A stretch of 64,000 bases of DNA from positions 310,001 to 374,000 of the forward strand of contig NZ_CP083760.1 in NCBI RefSeq assembly GCF_020149915.1, read 5' to 3'. Below, in pieces: positions 11,748-22,445 of the stretch; within the stretch, counting starts at the first letter, position 1; every line of letters begins with the position of its first letter. Origin of the DNA: Candidatus Sulfidibacterium hydrothermale (GTDB lineage: Bacteria > Bacteroidota > Bacteroidia > Bacteroidales > F082). Made by a program: the position numbers and the translations under genes. The notes under the pieces were generated by a model that saw nothing but the letters and a program-made list of their open reading frames with translations, made no database searches and was not told where the DNA came from.

Positions 11748-12128
11748 ATGAAAAAGATTATTCAGACTTCAAATGCTCCGGCGGCCATTGGTCCGTATAG
11801 CCAGGCTGTTGAAATGAACGGAATGTTATTTATTTCGGGACAAGTTCCTATTGACCCAGAGACCGGAAAAGTGGTGGAAGGTGATATTACCAAACAAACC
11901 GAACAGGTAATGAAAAATATTGGTGCCATTTTACAGGCAGCCGGATACCAGTTTTCTGATGTGGTGAAATCAACTTGCTTGTTGAGTGATATGGCTCATT
12001 TTGGAGAGATGAACGCGGTTTATTCGCGTTATTACGCTGAAAATCCGCCGGCGCGGGCGGCTTTTGCTGTTAAGGAATTGCCGCTTGGTGTGCTGATTGA
12101 GATAGAGACAATAGCGATGAAAAAATAA
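11748..12128 (+). CDS. ridA: RidA family enamine/imine deaminase
   Basis: A 126-residue protein of the YjgF/YER057c/UK114 family. RidA hydrolyses reactive 2-aminoacrylate and related imines made by PLP enzymes. Visible are the N-terminal NAPAAIGPYSQAVEMNGMLFISGQ signature split across residues 9-32, the central TEQVMKNI helix, and the C-terminal PARAAFAVKELPLGVLIEIE motif with the active-site Arg. Length is normal. The GH35 gene starts 11 bp downstream on the same strand and may be co-transcribed although unrelated in function. Confidence 0.95.
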   Translation: MKKIIQTSNAPAAIGPYSQAVEMNGMLFISGQVPIDPETGKVVEGDITKQTEQVMKNIGAILQAAGYQFSDVVKSTCLLSDMAHFGEMNAVYSRYYAENPPARAAFAVKELPLGVLIEIETIAMKK

Positions 12129-14009: not shown

Positions 14010-17000
14010 TTATTGCTTCTTCTTTTGGTCTAAGATGGTAATGGCTGCCTGTTTGGCCGCTGCCAGTGTTTCGCGATCTACTTTATGCATAACTTGTCCT
14101 TTGGTCAGATCATCATTGATAATATGATGTTTGAGCAAAAGCAGCTGGACAATAATGTTGTTCAGTTGTGTTTCGCGGTTGTACTGATCGGCGACATAAA
14201 TTTTATCCGCCTCTGATACAAAACTGGCCATCAGATTTTCCATCTGGGGCAAATGCAGCAGCTGTTTATAGGTTTCGCTCATGGCTGAGATCTCACGGTT
14301 CATGTTGGGTGTAACCAGCAACGGTTGAAATTCATGATTTTCATCCAGTCTTGATTTCAGATTGGATAAATCAATCTTTTCATCCGGACGATCGATGCGT
14401 ACGAGCTGGGCTTTTCGCATTTGTTCCATTTGCCACAGCCAGAAATTGTACCGGTTGATTTCGGCATTTTGTTCGATGTCGGGCAAAACGGTTTTGTAAG
14501 CCGCTGTTACTTTTTGTTTTACCCGGTTTTTATTTTCGTTGATGTCCGGACGTTTGTTGCGGACTTCACGAATCAGGCGCCGCATATCTTCGGCTGCGAT
14601 TTGCGGACCGGTAATTTCTTTTCCTTTTCGCCCGATATCGGTGGATAAGATACCGAGTTGTACTTTCTTTCCTTCTCCGGCTTTGAGTGCTTCGATCAGG
14701 TGTTTTTTGCTCTCAAATTCGCCTTCTTCATCCACAAACGGCTGTCCGGCCGGGGTGCTGGCCAGTGAGTCGAACAGGGTGTTGAAAAGGTTCCGGTCGA
14801 TAATTTGTTGTTTCTCTTCCCCGTCGGCATTCCGGATGGTGGCTACAAAACGGTTTTTGATAATATCGAAATCAACCCGGGAAATTGTCCACTCAATGTC
14901 TCCTTCACAGAATCTTTTTTCACTGAATATTTTATTGACAATTTCTTCCAGATTAATCTGGTCGATCATTTTATAAGAAGAGCACAAATAATAACGTCCT
15001 GAAAAGTCATCGTATTCCCAATCCAGCACATCATCGATGTAAGCGCCGTGGCGGTCCATTACCTCCACGATGTTTTTATCGCTGGTGTAGCGCAAAAGGG
15101 TACGCTGGAAGTGCGGGTTATCGCCCGAAGTGGCTTTTTCTTTCCGTTCGCCGTGTGAGTTGCGGTAAAGAATAAAGTTTTCCGGATTTTCGTAACGGGT
15201 AATTCCGGCTTCTTCGCGGGCAAAGTTACTGGCGGTAAGCATGATGTCAATTTTGTACGGCATGCTCACATCGCATAATCCACTGATGGTACTTCGTGAA
15301 TTGAGGTCTTCCACATTGGAGTCGGAAGCACTTTCAAACAGGGTGTAATAGTATTTGATGTAATCCGGATCGAAGTCGGTAACACGGCTAAAGTCGCCTT
15401 CTTCGGTTCCGATACCATACAGGTTCCCCTCTTTATCCGGGAACAGATGCAGCATATCCCCAGCAATCATTTTCAGCGAACGAACGCCGGTGAGGTTATT
15501 TTGCATCCATTTCAGCATCATGGCAGCCAGCATTTCCGATTTTCCCACACCACTGTCGCCGCTGATCTGAACGACAAATACTGCGCCGTCTTCTTCTTCT
15601 ACGGCAAACATGGAACCATGAATGGGAATGCCGCCCATCTCTTTGATTTTCTCGTTCAAAACCGTCAGGCGGGGCTTTTTGATGTTCCCGAAATAATCCA
15701 CTTCTTTACGCAGCGGCGAAACAATGGCTTTAATGTTTCCGCGCGGACCGGGAATATCAAAGTAACCGATCTGCGGGAAAGAAATCAGTTTCTCGGGAAA
15801 ACCGTAAAAGCAAATGGTATCCGGAACAAATTGCTGAATTTGATCAAGCGTTACTTCCTGTTTTTGCAGCAGGCGGAAGTTGTCTGCCAGATATTTCATG
15901 TAGGATTTATGGAAAACAAAAAGTTCATTGACCAGTCCGCCGTTGAAGATCTTACACCGGTAATCGCCGGCATCCATATTTCCGATAAATTGCTGAATAC
16001 GGTTCAGGAAGAAAGCCGGCATAGGCCGGGTGTCCAGCACTTTAATGTATTCATTGGAATTTTTTTGCGCCAGCGCAGCAATTTTTTCCGGTTTGTTTTT
16101 TTCGCCGTGCAACCGGTCGAGCCGGTGGTATGGGAATCCGCGTTTTTTGGCATCGGTAACAATGCGGGTATGGGTTTGTACATTTTGTTCCGTTCCGATA
16201 ACTCCGCATTGCGATAACATTTGTGGTATCCAGGTCAGCGTTTTCTTTTTGCTTTTTACCAATACATGTTCTTGAATGTCAAAGTGTTCAAAAACACTAA
16301 TGCCGTGCTGGGCCATTTCGTTAATGGCCGAGTTTTGTTTCAGGTAAACGGCTTCCGAAAGGCGCATAACGGTATGAACGTACGGATAGTAATGTTCGTT
16401 GGCTTTGGTGTTGTTGATCAGCTGGATGAGGAACAGGACAAACCAACGGGTTTCCTGATGGAGTTTTTCCGCCGGAATTTTTTTATCGGCCAGTTCGGCT
16501 ACCTGATTCCACAGCAGATTCCATTGTCCGGGAAGGGTTTCGTATAAAAACTTATCAATTAAAGCCTGTTCATCACGATCGTCAATTTCGTGGAGTTTTT
16601 GGTTAAAATGACGGAAAGTATCCGCCAGATTTTCTTTAAACCGGCTTTTTTCTTTTAACAGATAAAGATAAGCAATACGCTGTCCGGCCGTGAGATCGGT
16701 ATCATAAACCCGGTTCCGGATACGTTGGTTGATATCGCCAAAGAGTTTTTTCCCGGTTTCCAGATTTTCTTTTTCCAGCAATTGATAAATATCCTCGCCA
16801 AAATCTTTCAACGTATGATCCAGATCGATTTGTTCCGGATTGATCCCGATGATTTCTTCAAATTTTTCGAGAATGCTGTGTAAAAGCTCCAGCATGGAAG
16901 GTTCTGACGGGTCGTTATCAAACGGAAGATTAAAATGGAGCATCAATTCCTGAATGTATTTTCTGAGCAATTGATTCATCCCTTCCATGCGGGCGATGTC

Positions 17001-20000
17001 AGAAGAGTGGTTTCCGCTGCTGCGGAGAGCAATAATTTTTGTTTTTCCTGAGGAGAAAAGCAAGCGCTCCATTTCGAGCAGAATCTCAGCCATGATCAGC
17101 TCTTCGTCCGGTGCATCCAACACATAATGGTTGGGTTCGTAGTAAAGCTTGTTGGTGATGTATTTCAACAACGTGGCTTTTCCGAAACGGGCCAGTACTT
17201 CGCTAAACGGATAATGTTTTATTGCCGGAATGTTTTTATAAACCTGGGGAAGCAGGTTTTCGTAAACCGACGAGAATGCCTGGCTCTGGATAAACTCCGG
17301 AAGAGATGAACAGCGGCCCAGCGCATCGGTAAATTCGATTACTGCATTTTGCGAATCGTCAATGGCATGAATACCGACGCCGCTTACCGAAGGAGAAGCA
17401 TGATAAAGTGTCCAGCGGTTATCGATCAGCAGGGTTTGAAGCGGCTTTTTATTCAGATCGCGAATCAGATAAAAATCATCCAGAACACGGTCAATAAAAG
17501 CCCGTTCCGACGGCAGCGTAAAAATCTTGTCCAGCAATTCGTCGGTGCTTTTCTCTTTGTTTTCCGGGTTGTTTTTGGCCTGGTAAAATTGTTGCCAGTA
17601 TTTGAGAACGATTTCCAGTGCATTTTTTATCTCTTTCCGGAAAACATCATATGAGGCTGCCGTTCCTTCAAGATACCCGCCCAATGAAAACCGCAGAAAA
17701 CCGGTTTGGTAAGGGATGACTGCAATCCCCCGTTGTTCGGCCAGCTTTTGAGTAAATTTCTCCAGATCCTGATAAGAGAAAAAGTGCTTGAGCTGAATGT
17801 TGAAAAGGAAAGAGCCATCAGAGGCAACTACGCGGGCATATTTTCCGTTTTCGCCGCTGAGCAACTCTGCCGCCGTTTCTTTTCCGATTTTTAACCGTTT
17901 CAGCGATTCGTTGCGGAAGTTTTTGTTTACGCGGAAACTGTTTAGTGTACCGACCAGTTGTTTTTGATAATAAGCAAAGAAAGGTTCGTCTTTGTATTTG
18001 AAATCATCCGGAAGTTCCAGCATGTTCAGTTTGTCGATGGCTACCAGCTCATTAAGCAAAAAGAGATGTAGCGGACTTCCTTCAAAAGAGTTTTTCGGAA
18101 GACCGGCTTTGCTTTTGTCTGCTTTTTGTCCGGTGCATGTTTCCACGATAAACTGCTCAATGATGCGCTTGATCTTATGTCGCGAAGCATTACGCGGCAT
18201 TTTTTCTTCCAGGACATTCTTGATTTTCTTGGCTTGTTGTGCCGTTTCCAGTACGTTTACCAGCATGTACAACGAGTTGGTATTGCCGGTTTCTTTGTTG
18301 TTTTTACGCCGGGCAAAATCAATCACGTCTTTTTTGGCCGGAGTGGCCACAATTGAACCGAGCCGGTCGCCGGTAGCTCCCAGGTTTTTGGTTGTGGAAA
18401 TGGAAGACACCATGTTAAGACGGGCATATTTCTGGTCGAGATTGTCCATAACATACCGCGAAATGGTGCGCCATTTGGGTTCGTTGGGGTCATCGGTTTT
18501 TACGGTGTCGTTGTAGGCTTCATCCAGGAACAGCGTGATTTTGCTGGTGCTGATGAATTTTAAAAACTCCAAAAGCGACGGGTTGTTGAAATCAGAATAA
18601 CCGGACGGGTTGGCCGGATCGTTGATCACAATGGTCAGGTTTTCGCAAAAACGATCCCACAGGTTTCCAGTTTCGTCAAAAATCTGAAACGTGTTTTTCA
18701 TACGTTCCAGACGCAGCGTCAGCCGGTCAAAATCAATACGGCCCTCAGGGGTAATCCCGATTTCCAAATCGAACGGATTGATGTCGAAACGATCGGTGGG
18801 GAACAAATCGAGGTATTCCCAGGAGGAATATTTGTTAAACAGAATGTAAGGTTTCAGCACCTTGTCTTCCTTCCCAAAAAGCACATCACGGATAATCATT
18901 TGGACATCATCCGAAATGGATGTCTTTTTCAGATTGGTGAGGTTGCTGATAAATTCTTTGATAATGTGTTGTTCTGAAGGCGACAGCGCGTTGTATTTTT
19001 CCAGAATTCCTAAATCGATCAGTACATTTTTTAGTCGTCCTTCGTTATCGGCTTCGTTTTCCGCTTTGATCAAATATTGCTTGTACTTTTCAAGAAACAG
19101 GTTGATTCCGAAGTTTTTATGAAAATGATTTTTTAGTGTGCGCTGGTAGCTGTCCGGATAGAGATCCAGAATAACGCGGCAACGTTCCACAATTTCGTTA
19201 CTGATGGGTTTGAGTTTTCTTTGCAGCAGATAATCGCCGTAAGTTTTAATTTGGTTTCTGCCGCCACCTTCCACTACGGTGGCAATGTGGAGTTTTTTGG
19301 TTCCTGAATAGAAATATTTCAGGGTGCGTTCTTCAAAAGCCTCAATAAGTGCTTTGTTCAGTTGTTTTTGTTTTTTACTGTCGGCACACCGGATGATCAT
19401 GTCTAAATAGTTGCTCAGCCGGGTTAGCGCATATTTGTCCTTGATGATCTGCCGCGAAAACTCGTCAAATTTGAATAGCGTCAGATTTTTTTCCGGAGAA
19501 TCGGTTACCCCCAGTTGTTCTTTTTTCAGTTGTTCCAGTTCGGTTTGGTAGGCTGCAATTTTTTCGTCCATCCGCTGTTTGAACTTTTGCAGGTGGGGCA
19601 AGCTGACTTTTTCAAGGATTAACCGCAGGTTCATCTGGCTATTGGCCAATGCCCCCAGCTTTTTGGTGTGTACTTTATCCAGGCTTTGGATGATTTTGTT
19701 GTGAAAGCTGTACACCAGGCTGATGTTGGTACGGATAGCCATGGGAGAGTTGTCCACAAAAATCATCCGGCTCAAAAACGGGAACCATTTGGTGTCGTGA
19801 AATGGATTGTGTGTCAGTGATTTTACTTTAACAGCAAAAACAGCCGTGTTATTTTCCTGTAGCTTCTCAAAAAGTTGTTCGTCATTCTTATATTCTACTA
19901 CAACTACTTGCGAAGGGTGAAACATTTCTTCGCGCAGCAGTTGAACAACAGTATCAGGACTTCCGCTCACCGCCGTTACCAGCAATCCGTTCAGGCCTTT

Positions 20001-20636
20001 GAACGAAAGGCTTTGAGACATTCTTTCGAGAAAATCGGTTTTTTCGGCTTTGGTAGTATAGTGTGCGCTTTGTACGATCATCTGTTCCAGCACATCCATC
20101 AGGTAGTTCCACTGGAGCTTTTCACGGTCATCGTAAATTCCCAATACTTCCCGGAAACGGCGAAGGGTAGTAACTTCTTCGCCCAGCAGGATACGAAACC
20201 GGAATTTCAGGTTGGCCTGCGTGAAAGGCGGGGTGCCCATGGAAAAATCGTGGAAACCCAGTATTTTTTTTGCCTGTTCCTGTTTTTCATCGTTGATGAG
20301 TTCGGTATCCATGAGGTTGACCAGCCGGTTCCGGAAGCGGTTAAGCCGCGAGCGGTACTGAAACGCTTTGGATTCATCATGCGGAAACAGCATAAGGGAA
20401 ACATCCGTATAGGAAGGAAACGATTCTTTCAGAAGCAGAAGCTGTCGTTGTATTTCTTTTTGCTGATAAACCGGATCGTCAGGCTCTTCGTAGCAAAGAT
20501 GATAGAAGTTTTTCAGCAGTTCCATGTAGTGCAGGGGAAGAATGTTTTCGGCTTTATGCCGTAAAGCCAGATAGAGTTCAATAAAATCGAGGGCGTCTTC
20601 ACCGGGTTTGAGCTTTGATTTACTTAATGTACGCAT
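14010..20636 (-). CDS. Giant protein: aminotransferase-fold PLP domain plus HPr-kinase-like P-loop domain
   Basis: A 2208-residue predicted cytosolic protein with no signal peptide or clear membrane segments. Residues 1 to about 540 are mostly helical with no family recognised. About 545-1050 is a class I/II aminotransferase fold: N676 in NDPANPSG, D705 and Y708 in FLDEAYND, Schiff-base K750 in SISTTKNLGATGDRLG, and R982 in GFLRFSLGG. Their spacing matches aspartate aminotransferase, with an insertion of roughly 100 residues before R982. About 1050-1650 is a large helical region. About 1660-1850 resembles HPr kinase/PEPCK: IPIHGSMFAV, then GDSGVGKSE (K1699), an Asp at 1727 and SGLCDV (C1788) like the HprK signature. 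The C-terminus is helical. asnB lies upstream, separated by a terminator. All catalytic residues are present. The function is unknown. Confidence 0.85.
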   Translation of the reverse strand: MRTLSKSKLKPGEDALDFIELYLALRHKAENILPLHYMELLKNFYHLCYEEPDDPVYQQKEIQRQLLLLKESFPSYTDVSLMLFPHDESKAFQYRSRLNRFRNRLVNLMDTELINDEKQEQAKKILGFHDFSMGTPPFTQANLKFRFRILLGEEVTTLRRFREVLGIYDDREKLQWNYLMDVLEQMIVQSAHYTTKAEKTDFLERMSQSLSFKGLNGLLVTAVSGSPDTVVQLLREEMFHPSQVVVVEYKNDEQLFEKLQENNTAVFAVKVKSLTHNPFHDTKWFPFLSRMIFVDNSPMAIRTNISLVYSFHNKIIQSLDKVHTKKLGALANSQMNLRLILEKVSLPHLQKFKQRMDEKIAAYQTELEQLKKEQLGVTDSPEKNLTLFKFDEFSRQIIKDKYALTRLSNYLDMIIRCADSKKQKQLNKALIEAFEERTLKYFYSGTKKLHIATVVEGGGRNQIKTYGDYLLQRKLKPISNEIVERCRVILDLYPDSYQRTLKNHFHKNFGINLFLEKYKQYLIKAENEADNEGRLKNVLIDLGILEKYNALSPSEQHIIKEFISNLTNLKKTSISDDVQMIIRDVLFGKEDKVLKPYILFNKYSSWEYLDLFPTDRFDINPFDLEIGITPEGRIDFDRLTLRLERMKNTFQIFDETGNLWDRFCENLTIVINDPANPSGYSDFNNPSLLEFLKFISTSKITLFLDEAYNDTVKTDDPNEPKWRTISRYVMDNLDQKYARLNMVSSISTTKNLGATGDRLGSIVATPAKKDVIDFARRKNNKETGNTNSLYMLVNVLETAQQAKKIKNVLEEKMPRNASRHKIKRIIEQFIVETCTGQKADKSKAGLPKNSFEGSPLHLFLLNELVAIDKLNMLELPDDFKYKDEPFFAYYQKQLVGTLNSFRVNKNFRNESLKRLKIGKETAAELLSGENGKYARVVASDGSFLFNIQLKHFFSYQDLEKFTQKLAEQRGIAVIPYQTGFLRFSLGGYLEGTAASYDVFRKEIKNALEIVLKYWQQFYQAKNNPENKEKSTDELLDKIFTLPSERAFIDRVLDDFYLIRDLNKKPLQTLLIDNRWTLYHASPSVSGVGIHAIDDSQNAVIEFTDALGRCSSLPEFIQSQAFSSVYENLLPQVYKNIPAIKHYPFSEVLARFGKATLLKYITNKLYYEPNHYVLDAPDEELIMAEILLEMERLLFSSGKTKIIALRSSGNHSSDIARMEGMNQLLRKYIQELMLHFNLPFDNDPSEPSMLELLHSILEKFEEIIGINPEQIDLDHTLKDFGEDIYQLLEKENLETGKKLFGDINQRIRNRVYDTDLTAGQRIAYLYLLKEKSRFKENLADTFRHFNQKLHEIDDRDEQALIDKFLYETLPGQWNLLWNQVAELADKKIPAEKLHQETRWFVLFLIQLINNTKANEHYYPYVHTVMRLSEAVYLKQNSAINEMAQHGISVFEHFDIQEHVLVKSKKKTLTWIPQMLSQCGVIGTEQNVQTHTRIVTDAKKRGFPYHRLDRLHGEKNKPEKIAALAQKNSNEYIKVLDTRPMPAFFLNRIQQFIGNMDAGDYRCKIFNGGLVNELFVFHKSYMKYLADNFRLLQKQEVTLDQIQQFVPDTICFYGFPEKLISFPQIGYFDIPGPRGNIKAIVSPLRKEVDYFGNIKKPRLTVLNEKIKEMGGIPIHGSMFAVEEEDGAVFVVQISGDSGVGKSEMLAAMMLKWMQNNLTGVRSLKMIAGDMLHLFPDKEGNLYGIGTEEGDFSRVTDFDPDYIKYYYTLFESASDSNVEDLNSRSTISGLCDVSMPYKIDIMLTASNFAREEAGITRYENPENFILYRNSHGERKEKATSGDNPHFQRTLLRYTSDKNIVEVMDRHGAYIDDVLDWEYDDFSGRYYLCSSYKMIDQINLEEIVNKIFSEKRFCEGDIEWTISRVDFDIIKNRFVATIRNADGEEKQQIIDRNLFNTLFDSLASTPAGQPFVDEEGEFESKKHLIEALKAGEGKKVQLGILSTDIGRKGKEITGPQIAAEDMRRLIREVRNKRPDINENKNRVKQKVTAAYKTVLPDIEQNAEINRYNFWLWQMEQMRKAQLVRIDRPDEKIDLSNLKSRLDENHEFQPLLVTPNMNREISAMSETYKQLLHLPQMENLMASFVSEADKIYVADQYNRETQLNNIIVQLLLLKHHIINDDLTKGQVMHKVDRETLAAAKQAAITILDQKKKQ

Positions 20637-20780: not shown

Positions 20781-22445
20781 TTAATACGATTTTTTATGAA
20801 CTTTTTGAACCGCCCGGCCGGAAGGATCAATCACATTATTCAAGGATTTATCCCACATAAGCGCTTCCGGGGTACTGCAGGCTACCGATTTTCCGCCTGG
20901 AACACACTTAGCCGCCTCATCCCCGGGGAAATGATGTTCAAAAATGCTCCTGTAAAAATACGCTTCTTTGGTCATCGGTGTATTTACCGGAAAACGATAA
21001 GCTGCTTTTTCTAATTCCAGATCCGTAACCTGTTTTTCGGCCACTTCTTTCAGGGTATCAATCCAGCTGTAGCCTACGCCGTCAGAGAATTGTTCTTTTT
21101 GCCGCCAGGCTACTTCTTTTGGAAGGTAATCGCTAAAGAGTTCGCGAAGGATCTGTTTTTCCATTTTTCCTTCTTTTACCAGCTTATCTTCCGGGTTGAT
21201 GCGCATGGCCACGTCCAAAAATTCTTTATCCAAAAACGGAACGCGGGCTTCCACACCCCAGGCAGCCATCGATTTATTGGCCCGCAGACAGTCAAACATG
21301 TGCAATTGTGACAATTTTCGCACGGTTTCTTCATGCAATGCTTTCGCATCAGGGGCTTTATGAAAATAAAGATATCCGCCAAAAACTTCGTCGGCACCTT
21401 CGCCCGACAACACCATTTTTACTCCCATGGAACGGATTTTACGCGACATCAAATACATGGGAGTTGCTGCCCGGATAGTGGTTACATCATAGGTTTCAAG
21501 ATGATAAATGACATCTTTTACTGCATCCAGCCCTTCCTGAATGGTGTAAACAAAAGAATGATGAACCGAACCGATATAATCAGCTACCTTTTGTGCAGCT
21601 TCCAAATCGGGCGAGCCTTCCAAACCAATGGAAAAAGAGTGAACCTGAGGCCACCATGCTTCTTTCAGGTCAGAAGTTTCAATACGCCGTTGGGCATATT
21701 TACGAACAATGGCTGCAATGATGGAAGAATCCAGACCGCCGGAAAGCAGAACACCATAAGGAACATCAGACATTAACTGACGGTGAACGGCACTTTCCAG
21801 CGCCTGTTTTAATTGTTTTTTGTCGGTTACATTGTCTTTTACTGCTTCGTACGATTCCCAGTCGCGTTGGTAGTAACGGACAAATTTCCGGTCTTTGCTG
21901 CTGTAAAAATGTCCGGGAGGAAATTCCTTGATCTTTACACAATGGTTGATCAATGCTTTCATTTCGGAAGCCACACAAAAATTCCCCATTTTGTCGTATC
22001 CGTAGTATAAGGGAATAATGCCGATATGATCGCGTCCGATCAGATAAGAGTGGTCTTTGTTATCGTATAAAACAAAGGCAAAAATACCGTTAAGATCATC
22101 CAAAAAACCGGTTCCTTTTTCCAGATAAAGGGCATTGATGACTTCACAATCCGATTTTGTCTGAAAATCGTAAGGGACTTTCAGGTTTTTTTCCAGTTCA
22201 CGGTGGTTGTAAATTTCGCCGTTTACAGCCAGAGCCAAACGGCCGTCAGCACTCCGCAGAGGCTGAGCGCCATTTTCCACATCTACAATTGATAACCTTT
22301 CATGAACCAGAATGGCTTCGTCGTTCATGTAAATTCCTGACCAGTCCGGGCCACGATGACGCATGGTTTTCGACATTTCCAACGCCTGTTCGCGCCATTC
22401 TGCCGTACCGGTTTTAATATCTAAAATGCCTAATATTGAGCACAT
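20781..22445 (-). CDS. asnB: Asparagine synthetase B (glutamine-hydrolysing)
   Basis: A 554-residue enzyme that makes asparagine from aspartate, glutamine and ATP. The N-terminal class II glutaminase domain starts MCSILGI with nucleophile Cys2, followed by RHRGPDWSG and the AVNGEIYNH motif. The synthetase domain has the PP-loop LLSGGLDSSIIA near residue 230, VLSGEGADEVFGGY, and RVPFLDKEFLD. Length and order match E. coli AsnB. The promoter at 22483-22512 gives a leader of about 30 nt. The gene ends in a hairpin terminator. Confidence 0.97.
   Translation of the reverse strand: MCSILGILDIKTGTAEWREQALEMSKTMRHRGPDWSGIYMNDEAILVHERLSIVDVENGAQPLRSADGRLALAVNGEIYNHRELEKNLKVPYDFQTKSDCEVINALYLEKGTGFLDDLNGIFAFVLYDNKDHSYLIGRDHIGIIPLYYGYDKMGNFCVASEMKALINHCVKIKEFPPGHFYSSKDRKFVRYYQRDWESYEAVKDNVTDKKQLKQALESAVHRQLMSDVPYGVLLSGGLDSSIIAAIVRKYAQRRIETSDLKEAWWPQVHSFSIGLEGSPDLEAAQKVADYIGSVHHSFVYTIQEGLDAVKDVIYHLETYDVTTIRAATPMYLMSRKIRSMGVKMVLSGEGADEVFGGYLYFHKAPDAKALHEETVRKLSQLHMFDCLRANKSMAAWGVEARVPFLDKEFLDVAMRINPEDKLVKEGKMEKQILRELFSDYLPKEVAWRQKEQFSDGVGYSWIDTLKEVAEKQVTDLELEKAAYRFPVNTPMTKEAYFYRSIFEHHFPGDEAAKCVPGGKSVACSTPEALMWDKSLNNVIDPSGRAVQKVHKKSY

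Follow-up and report, generated by a model that had tools for sequence, protein, structure and literature searches.

What could a cell do with a single polypeptide that joins an aminotransferase to a P-loop domain? The question is raised by a 64,000-nucleotide stretch of the genome of Candidatus Sulfidibacterium hydrothermale (contig NZ_CP083760.1, positions 310,001 to 374,000; hereafter, the window), in which one gene on the minus strand encodes a chain of 2208 residues. An initial annotation, made from the sequence alone, interpreted this protein as a pyridoxal phosphate (PLP) enzyme of the aminotransferase fold fused to a kinase resembling HPr kinase/phosphorylase (HprK). Here we argue that the P-loop domain, although its P-loop is indeed of the HprK type, carries a substrate and metal site of the kind found in phosphoenolpyruvate (PEP) carboxykinase (PEPCK). 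Tentatively, with a probability of roughly 0.4, we propose that the protein is a self-contained bifunctional enzyme that would connect aspartate, oxaloacetate and PEP in one chain. The argument depends on the following features:

14010..20636, minus strand: the whole fusion protein, a single open reading frame of 2208 residues (ATG to stop, and homologues)
17547..19169, minus strand: class I/II aminotransferase domain, residues ~490-1030 (Pfam, profile versus PDB, hhalign)
18387..18389, minus strand: K750, the predicted Schiff-base lysine (87 of 87 rows)
14937..16199, minus strand: PEPCK-like domain with an HprK-type P-loop, residues ~1480-1900 (Foldseek, BLAST, hhalign)
15618..15695, minus strand: Y1648xG1650xxK1653K1654...H1673, the PEPCK substrate/metal-site motif (motif counts)
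15534..15560, minus strand: the P-loop GDSGVGKSE, residues 1693-1701 (87 of 87 rows for G1693-G1696 and G1698-E1701)
15456..15458, minus strand: D1727, a predicted metal-binding Asp (87 of 87 rows)
15294..15296, minus strand: R1781, aligned with the Arg of PEPCK NTRVSYP through a lactobacillar relative (87 of 87 rows)

Is the chain real? The open reading frame runs from 20636 to 14010, from ATG to stop, with no internal stop codon, which agrees with the uninterrupted chain of the initial annotation, and single-chain relatives of ~2200-2310 residues are found in records of Bacteroidota, Ignavibacteriota, Chlorobiota and Calditrichota. A scan of genome contigs, in which two peptides from residues 506-585 served as queries, so that relatives without that region escape it, confirmed 128 relatives, and the best 80 were kept. 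The alignment of 87 rows used throughout comprises the protein of the window (P0001), these 80 loci and 8 more loci, minus 2 exact duplicates; close relatives sit among the rows, and the 63 rows of at least 2000 residues stay below 88% identity. In their best segments, the full-length homologues are 48-84% identical to the window protein (51-57% for relatives from other classes or phyla), and, among 21 representatives, no pair falls below 46% identity. Because full-length homologues exist at such distances, a chance origin of the fusion is excluded, and the 2208-residue chain is no local accident. An open reading frame of 2195-2314 residues is present in 78 of the 87 rows; eight of the nine shorter ones end at a contig edge, and the remaining one (L092) has a longest frame of 1770 residues within a longer match. 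In one genome (G005), the gene is split over two contigs. The translation places the residues named in the initial annotation where it had put them, and both predicted active sites are invariant: N676, D705, Y708, K750 and R982 in the aminotransferase domain, as well as Y1648, G1650, K1653, K1654, H1673, G1674, G1693, D1694, S1695, G1696, G1698, K1699, S1700, E1701, D1727 and R1781 in the PEPCK-like domain, are each identical in all 87 aligned rows. The lysines of the two sites, K750 and K1699, are thus conserved jointly.

The aminotransferase fold is corroborated by independent searches. Pfam Aminotran_1_2 matches residues 665-812 with E=1e-12 (48.4 bits versus a curated cut-off of 19.7), and a 22-row profile of residues 480-1050 retrieves from PDB the ACC synthases and the aspartate and tyrosine aminotransferases (best E=3.8e-6; 10 matches at E<=0.1). 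In hhalign, residues 560-1030 align with aminotransferases of the same genome, taken as the longest open reading frames of the 17 other PF00155 loci, with 95% probability over 95 columns. The spacing of the catalytic residues, which had been claimed to match that of the family, does so in part. In aspartate aminotransferase, N and D are 28 residues apart, D and Y 3, Y and K 33, and K and R 128; the N-D (29) and D-Y (3) distances of the window protein agree with these values, whereas the Y-K distance, 42, does not, and K and R are separated by 232 residues. Judged by its sequence, the PLP domain is a class I/II aminotransferase, the predicted substrate of which is an amino acid.

The second domain is a more intricate case. 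Its P-loop conforms to GxxGxGK[ST] through the invariant G1693, G1696, G1698, K1699 and S1700, and, as the initial annotation recognized, it is an intact HprK-type GDSGVGKSE; the combination of an HG dipeptide (H1673-G1674) with a GKSE P-loop (residues 1693-1701), which serves to recognize HprK, is present as well. Upstream of the P-loop, however, lies a motif that HprK lacks. The pattern YxGxxKK followed, after 18 intervening residues, by H (YxGxxKK-18-H) occurs in 87/87 members of the family and in 20/20 ATP-PEPCKs versus 0/20 HprKs and 0/6 DUF4914 proteins, and it appears anywhere in only 12 of 20000 shuffles of P0001. In PEPCK, the residues of this motif bind oxaloacetate and the catalytic metal. 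The predicted structure of residues 1045-2208 (mean pLDDT 75, pTM 0.62, from the 22-row alignment) gave 313 Foldseek matches in PDB at E<=10, 72 of these at E<=0.001, and every one of the best 50 of the 313, with E 3e-5 to 2e-4 and probability 1.00, is a PEP carboxykinase, with no HprK among them; the TM-scores by query (1164 residues), 0.15-0.18, are low because the query is multi-domain, and the root-mean-square deviations, 8-23, are high.

Sequence comparisons beyond the family add to this picture. A tblastn search of 72,556 plasmid records with the whole protein returned one match (27%, E=3e-8; E 2e-15 in a two-sequence BLAST), a lactobacillar protein of 569 residues that carries a PEPCK annotation, namely, AYP99509.1 from Limosilactobacillus fermentum plasmid CP033373.1 (L163:2290-3999). 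In hhalign, it matches the fusion family with 98.6% probability (E 1e-15), canonical PEPCK with 94% over 262 columns, and HprK with 45% over 43; against the PEPCK_ATP model, it reaches E=2e-5 and 23.9 bits, just below the cut-off of 26.5. Through this relative, N-S-R1781 of the fusion aligns with the N-T-R of PEPCK. The SGLCDV block (residues 1785-1790), which had been taken for the second HprK signature, follows this N-S-R and, for that reason, cannot be counted as specific evidence for HprK. When the family is aligned by hhalign with the PEPCKs of the own genome and its relatives, YGGEMKK, MHCSAN, GLSGTGKTT and EGGCYAK of PEPCK are paired, respectively, with YFGNIKK, IHGSMF, GDSGVGKSE and EEGDFSR, at probabilities that are low (13-22% with PEPCK as the query, 26-62% with the family as the query).

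What, then, would the two domains do together? Since the product of aspartate aminotransferase, oxaloacetate, is the substrate of PEPCK, the fusion reads as a path from aspartate through oxaloacetate to PEP. The PLP domain would convert an amino acid, aspartate being the likeliest, to the respective 2-oxo acid, oxaloacetate, and back. With the help of metal ions and a nucleoside triphosphate, the PEPCK-like domain would do the same between this 2-oxo acid and the pair of CO2 and an enol phosphate (PEP), with the net reaction aspartate + 2-oxoglutarate + ATP <-> glutamate + PEP + CO2 + ADP. According to the review PMC8100219, the PEPCK reaction is reversible, and natural succinate producers run PEPCK towards oxaloacetate. 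Given this reversibility, either direction is possible for the fusion, and, in CO2-rich anaerobes, the enzyme might run in reverse, from PEP and CO2 to aspartate. The suggestion of the initial annotation that the chain makes its product in two steps could, under this scheme, be retained in altered form, as transamination coupled to a PEPCK-type (de)carboxylation and phosphoryl transfer.

Two groups of observations weigh against this interpretation. Those in the first group concern the P-loop domain, and some of them speak for the view that it is an HprK-like kinase which would phosphorylate a hydroxyl, either on a protein (perhaps the fusion chain itself) or on the product of the PLP domain, and thereby regulate or complete the aminotransferase reaction. 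Beyond the HprK-like P-loop itself, hhalign of residues 1610-1900 yields 90% over 61 columns with 20 HprKs versus 62% over 93 with PEPCK, and two longer stretches of the family give 89% and 83% for HprK versus 50% and 26% for PEPCK. Yet the HprK match is confined to the P-loop block, from H1673 to around residue 1745, whereas the PEPCK match is longer and takes in the substrate-site motif. The family models decide little: in the window's member, PEPCK_ATP (PF01293; E 0.042, 13.0 bits versus a cut-off of 26.5), Hpr_kinase_C (PF07475; 11.9 bits versus 33.3), NACHT and nSTAND3 are all under the Pfam cut-offs, and the NCBIfam PEPCK model gives 12 bits versus 806; among 22 members, matches at E<=1 are found for NACHT in 22, for nSTAND3 in 17, and, about equally weak, for Hpr_kinase_C in 16 (best 6e-4) and PEPCK_ATP in 15 (best 1.4e-3). 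The predicted metal site is atypical, too. Of the adjacent Asp-Asp that follows the P-loop in PEPCK, only one Asp is kept, D1727, with G1726 (86/87 rows) beside it. Its counterpart differs between alignments: in the lactobacillar relative, it is the second Asp of IFDDM, and in the family-PEPCK hhalign, the first Asp of GDDE. The Pro that follows N-x-R in PEPCK is not retained near R1781, and R1491, invariant in 87/87 rows, is an uncertain candidate for the equivalent of PEPCK Arg65 (an oxaloacetate-binding Arg in the N-terminal lobe), since no alignment fixes it. The kinase view, in turn, has to contend with the absence of the substrate-site motif from HprKs and with the fold matches, on which HprK as the whole answer is set aside, with the far longer fit of the lactobacillar relative to PEPCK, with the lack of any HprK at E<=1e-10 in the own genome, and with the lack of a conserved partner gene. 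The proposal that the domain is simply an HprK is not supported, and we retain the kinase as a serious but unlikely rival. Being under the thresholds of both families, the domain should be filed under neither ATP-PEPCK nor HprK; it is fairly described as a divergent PEPCK/HprK superfamily member that combines an HprK-type P-loop block with a PEPCK-type substrate/metal site.

The second group of observations concerns the substrate and the need for such an enzyme. Nothing in the data singles out aspartate as the amino acid, and a literature search turned up no functional test of the lactobacillar relative. A canonical ATP-PEPCK is present in the own genome, where no match to GTP-PEPCK was found, and in 46 of the 50 carrier genomes that were reached through 50 of the 80 loci (in G466, as a fragment only); one of the four other carriers has a GTP-PEPCK. 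This coexistence, the distance of the PEPCK-like domain from the canonical enzymes, and the patchy distribution of the family (a match in 3/395 genomes in a phylum search, own included) would fit a protein with the same chemistry but another beta-carboxylated substrate, such that a substituted aspartate would be transaminated and then converted, in a PEPCK-like step, to a substituted enol phosphate of some specialized metabolism. We consider this improbable, given that no biosynthetic genes are conserved alongside and that 51-57% identity across classes and phyla seems high for specialized metabolism. Least plausible, and hardly to be expected, is a PEPCK-like domain that serves as a nucleotide or metabolite sensor and switches the aminotransferase on and off without making PEP: the large extra regions could pass on such a signal and ATP-PEPCK is usually encoded elsewhere in the genome, but the residues predicted for the metal, the P-loop and the substrate are invariant in 87/87 rows, a constraint for which a sensor would have no use.

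The coexistence with ATP-PEPCK also rules out the fusion as a general PEPCK replacement; usually, it does not replace PEPCK. The situation within the window's genus is more complex. Among its 12 genomes, a small set of related and mostly incomplete genomes, four carry the fusion along with PEPCK, six carry it without PEPCK, two have PEPCK and no fusion, and none lacks both. The six genomes in question (G002, G004, G005, G006, G008 and G011; completeness 87-96%) match neither PF01293 nor PF00821, an apparent lineage-level loss; that all six carry the fusion speaks for the proposed role. A further point against the proposed role is that a PPDK_N-domain protein is present in 12/12 genomes of the genus, so the fusion need not be the sole source of PEP even there.

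The rest of the chain comprises three regions:

19287..20249, minus strand: N-terminal domain, residues ~130-450, possibly a degenerate fold-type-I PLP-like domain (AlphaFold model, Foldseek)
16197..17504, minus strand: mostly helical region, residues 1045-1480, no family found
14013..14936, minus strand: C-terminal region, residues 1901-2208, no family found

Neither a family nor a PDB sequence could be credibly matched to residues 1045-1480 or 1901-2208; the fold search with residues 1045-2208 showed PEPCKs only among the matches listed, and its listing gives the structures matched but not the query residues aligned. About 900 residues of the chain are unassigned. Residues 1-545 were modeled separately with AlphaFold (pLDDT 76), and the 50 Foldseek matches listed for this model, with E 0.003-0.1 and none at E<=0.001, are, as we take it from their PDB titles, 46 PLP enzymes, 3 GroEL and 1 unclear case. 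Profile comparison of residues 130-450 with the catalytic domain and with the aminotransferases of the own genome gave no sequence support. Thus, a degenerate PLP fold for residues 130-450 is no more than a faint suggestion of the model. An active PLP site in this domain is not supported by these comparisons and E values, and neither H323/K326 nor K314, which is not invariant, could be established as a lysine equivalent. If the N-terminal domain is a degenerate PLP fold, it might complete the dimer interface of the aminotransferase within one chain. The proposal could then be extended to a single-chain aspartate-PEP enzyme with internal channeling and a degenerate-PLP pseudo-dimer, which would tie the aspartate pool directly and reversibly to PEP and, in some lineages, could stand in for a lost PEPCK; this extended version is more doubtful than its core and should be regarded as speculative.

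How is the family distributed? Of the 40 genomes searched, the own and its relatives, 12 are carriers, 10 of which, own included, belong to the window's genus. The record titles of the kept relatives name Marinilabiliaceae, Rikenellaceae/Alistipes, Odoribacter, Flavobacteriia, Ignavibacteria, Chlorobiota and Calditrichaeota, and, again by record title, the named isolates with the family are Marinilabilia, Anaerophaga, Thermophagus and Alistipes sp. dk3624. In a gene tree of the 63 rows, made by a quick method, the Marinilabiliaceae group together, as do most of the Rikenellaceae, and the records labeled Flavobacteriaceae, Prolixibacteraceae, Calditrichota and Chlorobiota are scattered, a placement suggestive of transfer, of mis-binning or of mislabeled records. 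A viral or mobile origin was rejected: no relative was confirmed in viral contigs (by pattern scan) or phages, and the plasmids gave the lactobacillar PEPCK alone. Likewise rejected was a role in anti-phage defense, for which a single PADLOC match with E 0.043 is not credible. In G008, a separate fragment of ~84 residues (L102:2328-2579), 56% identical to residues 2122-2205, lies ~7.6 kb from the intact gene on the same contig and might be what is left of a second copy or else a freestanding C-terminal module.

The gene neighborhoods contain no constant companion of the fusion. Clustering of neighbors over 87 loci (86 fetched and the window, many with short flanks) revealed no gene conserved as a partner beyond close kin, which speaks for a self-contained enzyme, and the largest cluster covers 11/87 loci at scattered positions. 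One gene adjoins the fusion upstream:

20781..22445, minus strand: asparagine-synthetase-like gene, 554 residues, named by reading its sequence

It recurs in 6/87 loci, all from the window's genus, and is probably not part of the system. A RidA-family cluster is present in 10/87 loci, mostly downstream of the fusion: eight of the 11 members occupy position +1 or +2 on the opposite strand. Proteins of the RidA family render by-products of PLP enzymes harmless. In the window, a gene near the fusion (11748-12128) was assigned to this family from its sequence as a reactive enamine/imine deaminase-like protein.

The PEPCK-like domain was also sought on its own. A profile run against 296 genomes of the phylum found two full-length homologues, own included, and 10 weak matches (E 0.001-0.008), two of which, L154 and L157, look like methionyl-tRNA synthetase when the sequences are read; with the lactobacillar protein as the query, a search of 247 genomes brought up nothing but two full-length homologues. 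This plasmid-borne protein, with an HprK-like GDSGAGKSE P-loop and a score below the Pfam PEPCK cut-off, possibly represents a separate divergent PEPCK-like type. DUF4914 proteins (L125-L130), on which no paper was found in the literature search, bear a PEPCK-like P-loop, DDM and N-x-R and are present in 6/60 relatives.

Taken together, the parts of the protein are of known kinds, and their combination and the mixed PEPCK/HprK type were not found described: searches of the open-licence PubMed Central literature brought up no description of the fusion architecture, of the mixed type or of the ~900 family-less residues, in agreement with the initial annotation, which knew of no described protein of this layout. 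Aspartate, oxaloacetate and PEP form the junction of glycolysis, gluconeogenesis and amino acid synthesis, so if the proposed function is true, a conserved one-protein link would be a new route at this node, by which anaerobic Bacteroidota and their relatives could fix CO2 into aspartate or make PEP from amino acids, and would also offer a natural model for the channeling of an unstable intermediate, oxaloacetate. A domain that unites an HprK-type P-loop with the substrate site of a PEPCK would illustrate how the superfamily bridges metabolic enzymes and kinases, and the ~900 residues may hold new folds. Since named isolates carry the family, these possibilities are testable now.

It remains to compare the fusion with known systems. 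With the class I/II aminotransferases (PF00155), such as ACC synthase and the aspartate aminotransferases, it shares the set and order of N, D, Y, K and R, but differs by the longer K-R segment and by fusion to a possible PLP-like domain and a PEPCK-like domain. With ATP-PEPCK, it has in common the predicted fold and, in the same order, Y-x-G-x-x-K-K...H, the P-loop, one Asp and N-x-R; in contrast to ATP-PEPCK, its P-loop is of the HprK type, with S-E for T-T, one of the two Asp residues is replaced by Gly, and the domain, below the family cut-off, is embedded in a 2208-residue chain. The PPi-PEPCK is stated in PMC8100219 to be unrelated to the ATP- and GTP-dependent enzymes. HprK resembles the fusion in the HG dipeptide and the GKSE P-loop, giving the best profile match to the P-loop block, and differs in lacking the YxGxxKK-18-H motif. 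The same motif is missing from DUF4914 (PF16260), a separate family of 612 positions, which has a similar P-loop, GASGGGKSE, the DDM motif, and a weak profile match (42% and 28%). Finally, L. fermentum AYP99509.1 resembles the fusion family in its own motifs YFGYMKK, LPIHGSM, GDSGAGKSE and GTETGAFVR but, unlike the fusion protein, is a stand-alone protein that carries no PLP domain.

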